Shown here: piece after piece, positions 42,451 to 44,283 of the stretch | Layout: every line of letters starts with the position of its first letter | Numbering within the stretch: the first letter of the stretch is position 1 | From: Verrucomicrobiia bacterium | Lineage (GTDB): Bacteria; Verrucomicrobiota; Verrucomicrobiia; Limisphaerales; Fontisphaeraceae | Assembly: GCA_026414565.1 (NCBI GenBank) | Contig: JAOAIT010000064.1 | Location: 1 to 64,000, forward strand | Direction: 5' to 3' | Length of the DNA stretch: 64,000 nt | Made by a program: the position numbers and the translations under genes | The notes under the pieces: model-generated | What the model was told of the DNA's origin: nothing | The model's database searches: none | The model's input: the letters and a program-made list of their open reading frames with translations, nothing else

Positions 42451-43497
42451 ATGAAGACTTCACGCCATCCGGCCGGCAGCAAGGTTGAAAGCGCAGGCCG
42501 GGGTGCCGCCCGGGCGGGCGGCGGTGGACGCCTGGCTTTGCTGTGGCTGGCCGGCCCGCGCACCGGGGAGGAGCACCTCCTGCCCGAAGATCGCCCCACC
42601 CTTTGCGGGCGCAGCCGGGATGCCGACATTCGCATTGAGGATGACCTGGTTTCGCGGCGGCACACCAAAATCACCTGCACCGGCGGGCAATACGTGGTGG
42701 AGGATTTGGGTTCCAAAAACGGGACCTTTTTGAACGGCGAAAAAATTGGCGGCCCCACGATTTTGAAGGCTGGCGACTACCTGCGCATTGGGGAGGCCAC
42801 GTTCCATGTGGTGGCGCCCTGCGTGGTGGGGGAGCAGGCGCGCTCCTGGTGGGAGCACACGCAGCGGACGATGCTCACGCAGGCGCATCCGGAGCCGCTC
42901 AAGGCGGGCGCGGCTCCCATGATCAGTGGTTCCCTGAGCGAGGTTCCCTTGATGGACTTGCTGCAGTTGCTCTCCAACAGCATGAAAACAGGGTGTGTCA
43001 CCCTGCGGCAGGAGGCGCAGCGGGCCGACCTCTGGATGCGGCAGGGGCATATTTATTATGCCAGTTTGAATCAGCAGCCCTCGCCGCGTCCGGAAAAAAC
43101 GCTGATGCGCATCCTGCGCTGGTCCGCGGGGACCTTCACCTTTACGCCGGGAGTGGAGGCACCAGTGCCGGCGGAAATTGTTGAGCCAACGGCCTCGGTC
43201 TTGTTGGAGGGGGCACGCCAGGCGGATGAAATGCAGGCTTTTGATGGCGTGCTGCCTCCCTTAGATGCCCGCTTGAAGCTGGCCTTTCCACTGCCGCATC
43301 CCTTGCGCGACTGCACGCCGGAAGAATTGGATGTGTTGCAACTGGTGCTGGAGCACGGGGTCTTGGAAAAGGTGCTGGATGCCCATCCGGGGTCCGATTT
43401 GGATGCCGCGCAAGTGCTGGTGCCGATGCTGCAGAAAAAATTGCTCATGGTGGACGCGGGGGGTGCGCAGGACAACCGGGCAGCGGAAGGGAAGTGA
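42451..43497 (+). CDS. FHA domain - DUF4388 signalling protein
   Basis: 348 residues. After a 25-residue basic tail comes an FHA domain (about 27-125) with the phospho-threonine-binding residues in LCGRSRDADI, SRRHTKI and GSKNGTFLNG. A DUF4388 region (about 155-250; GSLSEVPLMDLLQLLSNSMKTGCVTL, then LWMRQGHIYYASL) follows; this domain occurs with receiver and FHA domains in bacteria that use gliding or stalk-type signalling. The C-terminal third (EELDVLQLVLEHGVLEKVL) is helical. FHA domains read phosphothreonine made by Ser/Thr kinases; none is in this window. Monocistronic, with the ncRNA locus and its terminator directly downstream on the opposite strand. Confidence 0.88.
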   Translation: MKTSRHPAGSKVESAGRGAARAGGGGRLALLWLAGPRTGEEHLLPEDRPTLCGRSRDADIRIEDDLVSRRHTKITCTGGQYVVEDLGSKNGTFLNGEKIGGPTILKAGDYLRIGEATFHVVAPCVVGEQARSWWEHTQRTMLTQAHPEPLKAGAAPMISGSLSEVPLMDLLQLLSNSMKTGCVTLRQEAQRADLWMRQGHIYYASLNQQPSPRPEKTLMRILRWSAGTFTFTPGVEAPVPAEIVEPTASVLLEGARQADEMQAFDGVLPPLDARLKLAFPLPHPLRDCTPEELDVLQLVLEHGVLEKVLDAHPGSDLDAAQVLVPMLQKKLLMVDAGGAQDNRAAEGK

Positions 43498-43515
43498 AAC
43501 AAAGGAAGCAGAAAT

Positions 43516-43560
43516 AAAAAAACCGGGCGGCACAGTCAGGGGATGACCGTCGCCGCCCGG
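43516..43560 (-). terminator. Intrinsic terminator of the 43516-43725 RNA
   Basis: On the minus strand a perfect 9-bp GC-rich stem (CCGGGCGGC mirrored by GCCGCCCGG; loop of 20 bases, itself able to pair GTCA with TGAC) is followed by seven T residues. It would end minus-strand transcripts coming from 43600-43900. On the plus strand, where the FHA gene ends, there is no T tract. Confidence 0.85.
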
Positions 43561-43725
43561 GGAATTTCGAACCAATACACGCAGGTTTTAGGGGATACTC
43601 GACAGCGGTTGTATCAGGCCGCTGCCGAAATCTGTTCGGACAGTCAAAGAACTTTGTTCTTCAGTCAGTCCGCAAATCTGGTCGCTGCGTGCGATCCCAT
43701 TTCCCCGACGCTTATCGCATCGGAC
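43516..43725 (-). ncRNA. Candidate small structured RNA (about 210 nt), possibly 6S-like
   Basis: No protein-like frame fits this stretch. It lies between an AT-rich UP-like tract with a perfect TTGACA box (43755-43760) and an intrinsic terminator, all on the minus strand. The start near 43725 is estimated from the -35 position. Read 5'-3', it can form a 7-bp hairpin at the 5' end (43705-43723), an apical rod-like hairpin closed by CGGAC/GTCCG with a perfect 6-bp tip (AAGAAC/GTTCTT around 43647-43661), and a basal helix from GGGAT (43694-43698) to ATCCC (43592-43596) plus GCAGCG to CGCTGT. The layout, a basal stem, a large asymmetric bubble and an apical stem, with length near 200 nt, resembles 6S RNA. 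I do not recognise conserved 6S sequence, so the class is open. Confidence 0.55.
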
Positions 43726-43754
43726 GCCCGTAAGAAACCACAGGCGGGGTGAGG

Positions 43755-43826
43755 TGTCAAGCGGGAATTAAAAGTATTAATTTAACTAAGTTAATAAAAT
43801 AGGTATATTAGTTATTTTAATATATA
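43755..43826 (-). promoter_or_regulatory. Strong-looking promoter of the small RNA: UP-like AT tract and -35 box
   Basis: On the minus strand, a perfect TTGACA (43755-43760) is directly preceded by about 60 bases of nearly pure A/T (43766-43826), which resembles an UP element that binds RNA polymerase alpha subunits. At 17-base spacing the -10 hexamer would be TTTCTT (43732-43737), a poor match. Such UP-plus-TTGACA promoters are usual for stable RNAs. Confidence 0.55.
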
Positions 43827-43887
43827 GCTCTGACGGCTTGAAACCTGGTTTTGGCCGCCCGGCCCCTGGTCAGGGGCGGGCGATGGT

Positions 43888-44283
43888 TTAGGCTTGGTCG
43901 GGATACTGGGCGATGATTTCGATTTCGACTTGTGCGCCGCGGGGCAGGGCGGCCACCTGCACGGTGGAGCGTGCCGGCGGGGCATGAGCGAAGAACTCGG
44001 CGTACACCTCGTTCATGGCGGCGAAGTCAGCGAGGTTGGTCATGAAGACGGTGCTTTTGAGCACGTGCTGAAAATCCAGGCCCTGGTCGGCCAACAGCAG
44101 GCGAATGTTTTCCAGGACGCGACGGGTTTGTTCGCGAATGCCGCCGGAGACCAACTGGCCGGTGGCGGGGTCAAGGGGAATCTGGCCGGAGCAGAACAGC
44201 AGGTTGCCGGCGCGGACGGCATGACTGTAAGGCCCCACGGGGGTGGGGGCGCTGGCGGGGCGGATGATTTGTTTCTGGCTCAT
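43888..44283 (-). CDS. ridA: RidA-family enamine/imine deaminase
   Basis: 131 residues, the standard RidA length. Motifs: PVGPYSHAVRAGNLLFCSGQIPLDPATG near the N-terminus and ARSTVQVAALPRGAQVEIEIIA near the C-terminus, holding the Arg and Glu of the active site that hydrolyses reactive 2-aminoacrylate-type imines. RidA forms a trimer in the cytoplasm and protects pyridoxal-phosphate enzymes. It starts 6 bases after the IscX gene. After its stop a GC-rich hairpin (43857-43884) lacks a T tract. It appears to end the operon of PaaK, ACT, enolase-type enzyme and IscX. Confidence 0.95.
   Translation of the reverse strand: MSQKQIIRPASAPTPVGPYSHAVRAGNLLFCSGQIPLDPATGQLVSGGIREQTRRVLENIRLLLADQGLDFQHVLKSTVFMTNLADFAAMNEVYAEFFAHAPPARSTVQVAALPRGAQVEIEIIAQYPDQA

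Follow-up and report, generated by a model that had tools for sequence, protein, structure and literature searches.

A conserved, pseudoknotted small RNA gene with a boxA-like element in Limisphaerales/Pedosphaerales

The gap between an FHA/DUF4388 gene and a RidA gene in the window (the whole 64,000-nucleotide stretch of DNA that was analysed) contains on its minus strand, at positions 43516-43826, what is almost certainly a self-contained gene encoding a structured non-coding RNA about 205 nt long. It belongs to a real RNA family recovered in 192 of 245 genomes of Limisphaerales/Pedosphaerales ("Verrucomicrobia subdivision 3"). The best explanation of the locus, to which we assign a probability of about 0.6, is a stable RNA that would be made with the help of the Nus complex at a boxA element and would act in trans via a pseudoknotted core and a C-rich loop. 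As a preliminary description of this DNA had claimed, the gap (43498-43887, 390 bases) is gene-free and holds a UP-like tract, a TTGACA box, and a terminator. Read 5' to 3' on the minus strand, the order is an A/T-rich tract, TTGACA, a weak extended -10, about 205 transcribed bases, a stem, and seven T. The gene and its promoter are delimited by the following features:

Ends at 43497, plus strand: FHA/DUF4388 gene, flanking the gap
43888-44283, minus strand: RidA gene, flanking the gap
43766-43778, minus strand: UP-like element AATACTTTTAATT, the conserved part of the A/T-rich tract 43765-43826
43755-43760, minus strand: -35 hexamer TTGACA
43732-43740, minus strand: extended -10 TGGTTTCTT, spacer 17 (promoter logo, 98 loci)
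43517-43726, minus strand: predicted transcript (promoter logo and fold), ending in the T run

By comparison across relatives, the promoter is of the sigma-70 type with a UP-like element, and the transcript is predicted from the -10 to start at about 43725. The G+C content is 18 to 22% across 43760-43839, and the logo built from 98 loci displays a UP-like AATAATACTTT 11 to 20 nt 5' of TTGAC. Of 101 homologous loci, 98 have the pentamer where it is expected, a count for which it served as the anchor, whereas the TG before the -10 did not and is still kept in about 80% of the 98 loci; the final T of the -10 is kept in 91%. A -35/-10 spacing of 17 recurs in 85 of 101 promoter calls. The distance from the -35 to the first hairpin (P1; see below) is 93 nt in the window's genus (L001/L002) versus about 55 nt in most other loci. 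The promoter travels with the RNA across differing neighbourhoods. A mechanical scan of the window called neither promoter nor terminator, owing to the poor -10 and the interrupted stem; since it reports neither, sequence alone would leave the matter open, and it is conservation that argues for both elements being real. The silence of the scan is also what could be said for there being no gene here at all, only a chance fold beside a terminator; given that promoter, fold, and terminator are conserved throughout the order with strong covariation, we put the likelihood of this at next to nil.

The distribution of the family was established with blastn, which gave matches in 20 of 58 related genomes, and then with a covariance model (R1) built from six homologues. 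This model recovered the above-mentioned 192 genomes with E-values down to 5e-30 and the window's own genome at 2e-14, the E-values of such home-made models being rough and the relatives being mostly metagenome assemblies. The R1 search recovered none of the 288 other genomes in a phylum-wide sample, and a class-wide search admitting E-values up to 1 yielded a single match outside the order (E = 0.74) and none above noise. Thus, the suggestion that this may be a lineage-specific RNA stands, with matches confined to one order in the phylum-wide sample. Named records that carry a conserved 18-mer and match the model are mostly from Verrucomicrobia (including Verrucomicrobia subdivision 3, Limisphaerales, and Pedosphaera), and records from other phyla sharing the 18-mer by chance do not match it. 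A record titled Akkermansia muciniphila (L245; accession no. CAMCWI010000043.1) contains the RNA at 102.8 bits; it may be misnamed or contaminated, and the RNA is lacking in the class's other genomes that fall outside the order. There is usually one copy per genome, and some genomes have two or three (e.g., G052, G175, G186, and G227); one locus holds tandem copies at 1501-1653 and 1846-1995, each with its own promoter (L069), and another is likewise tandem (L251). Neither the window nor the RNA region of 14 homologous loci matched an Rfam 15 family at gathering score, and weak matches with E-values up to 10 are all far below gathering scores and were dismissed as chance. A c-di-AMP riboswitch (51.6 bits) lies close to the RNA in one relative (L019, 901-1062, minus strand). 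A 2017 survey reportedly comprises 224 candidate RNAs. The RNA is not described in the open-access literature that we searched, and it may have been reported before in a source other than Rfam.

The transcribed strand folds at -94.3 kcal/mol, compared with -70.8 +/- 4.5 for shuffles (z = -5.2). Among 101 aligned members, 95.3% of cells are paired versus 80.2% in shuffles, two-sided changes number 413 against 99 expected (none of 500 shuffles was as high), and sliding the alignment by one column halves the pairing. Strong covariation is concentrated in five elements, namely, a closing helix (P0), two hairpins (P1 and P2), a pseudoknot, and the terminator, which are placed as follows:

43705-43723, minus strand: extra 5' hairpin confined to the genus (the window and L002; alignment A1)
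43685-43691, minus strand: helix P0, 5' strand CACGCAG (fold and swap test)
43636-43673, minus strand: hairpin P1, GCGGAC ... GTCCGA, holding boxA (covariation)
43643-43652, minus strand: boxA-like GTTCTTTGAC (member count and match to the genome's own rRNA leader)
43599-43630, minus strand: hairpin P2, TTTCGGCAGCGG ... CCGCTGTCGA (covariation)
43609-43616, minus strand: P2 loop, the pseudoknot 5' strand TGATACAA (covariation and swap test)
43578-43584, minus strand: helix P0, 3' strand CTGCGTG (fold and swap test)
43574-43579, minus strand: pseudoknot 3' strand TGTATT (covariation)
43559-43573, minus strand: near-invariant unpaired linker GGTTCGAAATTCCCC (alignment A7)
43516-43560, minus strand: whole terminator, a 9-bp outer stem and an inner stem followed by seven T
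43523-43560, minus strand: terminator hairpin, two covarying stems with the C-rich apical loop ATCCCCT at 43538-43544
43516-43522, minus strand: terminator T run, seven T

P0 pairs the 5' end with the strand that follows P2. It is typically GGAUUACG/CGUAAUCC and varies to GGUUUACGG/CCGUAAACU, GAUUUGCGG/UCGCAAAUC, and GGUUUUAG/CUAAGACC; its helix score is 14.2 for native partners versus 11.8 +/- 0.24 for swapped ones, and each of its eight modelled pairs has two-sided changes when the alignment is fitted to P0. Two-sided changes are likewise present in all four pairs of P1 (92.9% of cells paired) and all nine of P2. In the pseudoknot, the P2 loop (GGUACA) pairs with a downstream strand (UGUACC), with 95.7% of cells paired and two-sided changes in five of five pairs. 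The pairs seen include GUACA/UGUAC, AUACA/UGUAU, GUGCA/UGCAC, GUUCA/UGAAC, and GCACA/UGUGC, among others, and the native energy is -7.49 versus -6.22 +/- 0.11 after swapping. The alignment used for this count was fitted to R1, and the count is not circular because R1 was built without the pseudoknot. The two terminator stems are paired in 99.7% and 95.4% of cells, and the loop keeps YCCYC while its closing pair changes from A-U to U-A. For the linker preceding the terminator no supported partner was found, and an extra helix between this linker and the segment before P1 was rejected (12.06 for native versus 11.86 for swapped partners). In the window's copy, ATCCCCT occurs twice on the minus strand, in the linker after P2 (43590-43596) and in the terminator loop. 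Conservation and covariation in relatives, on which the proposal of a stable RNA gene had been made to depend, are therefore strongly present, and the gene is upheld. The stretch of about 210 bases described earlier as a multi-hairpin rod does have a conserved fold, but this fold is a pseudoknotted multihelix junction, unlike a rod built around a central bubble. The frame is not consistently open at homologous loci, so a protein-coding gene was rejected, as was a riboswitch or mRNA leader; the next gene is convergent with the terminator in between, in keeping with the earlier exclusion of a leader.

Within the 5' half of the RNA, conservation is highest in the P1 loop at TTG(N)TCTTTGA, a stretch that includes G(N)TCTTTG(A), the core of boxA as found in the rRNA leaders of this order. 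Of 101 members, 83 contain the motif GNTCTTTG, whereas dinucleotide shuffles give about 1; most of the 18 members without a perfect copy keep TCTTT with a different base after it, and boxA is retained in members that are without the usual P1 stem (L094, L106, and L109). The rRNA leaders of the order, including that of the window's genome, have GYTCTTTGAAAATT about 110 to 170 nt before 16S; the GNTCTTTGA core is identical in these leaders and in the RNA, and the window's boxA matches that of its own rRNA leader, GCTCTTTGAAAG. Written out, the rRNA boxA is GYTCTTTGAAA versus GTTCTTTGA in the RNA, with the cores matching and the AAA after TCTTTGA mostly absent from the RNA. Unlike in an rRNA leader, where boxA is the NusB/S10 site, no rRNA follows, and an intrinsic terminator lies about 130 nt after boxA. 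In the fold of the window's copy, boxA can pair with AAGAAC in P1. A second boxA-like element, CGCTCTTTGAGACGGG, lies about 351 nt before 16S in the genome's own rRNA operon (L046) and is also seen in L045. The known boxA consensus GYTCTTTAANA was derived for gamma-proteobacteria in a study that likewise deals with boxA outside rRNA, though there in mRNA control and with non-coding RNAs left out of consideration, whereas here it lies on a non-coding RNA (PMC5725501).

In 15 of the 20 6S loci of the order (L021 to L040; e.g., L039, from contig C70 of the window's own genome), the same motif, GNTCTTTG, precedes the 6S sequence by 22 to 41 nt, and the remaining five have a near match. It also occurs in the 6S leaders of some other lineages of the phylum (L269, L271, L275, and L279) and is absent in others; a check of four SRP and tmRNA loci did not reveal it. 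That it precedes 6S genes as well points to a general function in the production of stable RNAs. In the open-access literature searched, we found nothing joining 6S RNA, boxA, and antitermination. We consider the boxA of the RNA to be probably functional, with NusB/S10 as its predicted ligand. That binding could instead be the main job of the RNA, which would then serve as a decoy for Nus factors and tune rRNA transcription or ribosome assembly. A core identical to that of the rRNA boxA and the parts of a strong promoter are consistent with this, and there is a precedent in Escherichia coli, where transcription of a lambda NutL element draws off Nus factors by titration, with a drop in rRNA expression (PMC4807359). 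However, a conserved pseudoknot and linker would be superfluous in a decoy, and boxA is also present in 6S leaders, outside the matched 6S sequence; we regard such a role as unlikely.

The preliminary description had further suggested a 6S-like regulator while recognising no 6S sequence. The latter observation is correct in that the Rfam 6S covariance model (RF00013) has no match at gathering score in the window, and the former did not hold up: the 6S RNA of this genome lies on another contig (G000:C70:75869-76057; 65.8 bits), and in place of the 6S rod with a central bubble and closing stem, we found covarying P0, P1, P2, pseudoknot, and terminator. SRP RNA and tmRNA were also found elsewhere in the genome. 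Because all three lie elsewhere, the RNA is not a drifted copy of any of them; it is like tmRNA and the small SRP RNA in being stable and structured, and tmRNA also has pseudoknots. A second, divergent 6S RNA would account for the length, the A/T-rich upstream tract, the stable RNA gene, and the boxA common with 6S leaders, but the failed Rfam match, the genuine 6S on C70, and the different covarying fold make this highly improbable. Although there is no sequence or model match, the RNA does resemble 6S RNA in its stability, its length of about 200 nt, the possession of its own promoter and, in this order, a boxA-like element, and it could be related to 6S or Ms1 RNA in effect without common descent, as a protein-binding RNA acting on RNA polymerase or another complex. 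The compact conserved fold, the near-invariant linker, and the near-universal, mostly single-copy presence in the order would suit such a role. With no 6S match at the locus, a true 6S elsewhere, no central bubble of the 6S type, and boxA as the sole link to polymerase, we do not expect this to be the case. Taken as a whole, the earlier interpretation was right about a lineage-specific stable RNA gene with a UP-like tract, TTGACA, and terminator, wrong about 6S, and silent on boxA and the pseudoknot.

We then return to the preferred reading of a stable RNA made with Nus assistance and acting in trans. As in rRNA leaders, boxA on the emerging transcript would be bound by NusB/S10, and polymerase loaded with Nus factors in this way would read through and allow the pseudoknotted core to fold properly. 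The finished RNA would, with less certainty, act in trans, where its exposed C-rich segments (YCCYC in the terminator loop and UUCCCC in the linker) could pair with purine-rich ribosome-binding sites of mRNAs; the terminator loop and the near-invariant linker would be the likeliest points of contact. We propose the antisense action in trans only tentatively, and the C-rich loop could be kept because it is part of the terminator. Small RNAs of Gram-positive bacteria with C-rich loops likewise display a conserved C-rich loop on a hairpin, but the core here is pseudoknotted and carries boxA, and we know of no sequence relation between them.

The gene neighborhoods in relatives bear on one further possibility, a nitrogen-status RNA tied to glnB/glnA via their common intergenic region. 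Upstream sequence was long enough in 93 loci; in 35 of these, the RNA is transcribed divergently from an adjacent glnB, glnA, or dnaA (glnB with glnA, 15; glnB with dnaA, 12; dnaA, 6; glnB alone, 1; and glnA alone, 1), with glnB next door in 28 and the orientation always the same. Examples in which this divergent arrangement of glnB with glnA or dnaA is conserved are L056, L058, and L062. The other 58 loci, however, have none of these genes adjoining; they include the window's genus, in which the RNA sits behind RidA and faces the FHA gene. Moreover, dnaA is a neighbour as often as glnA, and pairing between the RNA and the start of the neighbouring glnB gave no signal (-22.5 for native versus -23.7 for shuffled sequences). 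The adjacency may reflect only an ancestral position, and we think a nitrogen-status role quite improbable. The glnB start region has a conserved TTGTTAGTATC of its own, perhaps an extended -10.

This RNA is near-universal, mostly single copy, and strongly covarying in a large environmental order, and it has no Rfam entry; in a phylum with few studied small RNAs, it is a clear experimental target. It is conceivable, and we advance it with reserve, that boxA recruits the Nus complex to a set of small stable RNAs besides rRNA in this order (and, for 6S RNA, in parts of the phylum), with the pseudoknotted family as a new regulatory member that couples the state of Nus factors or ribosome assembly to gene control. 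A boxA on this RNA as well as in 6S leaders would extend the known range of the Nus complex beyond rRNA and the few mRNAs on which it has been studied.
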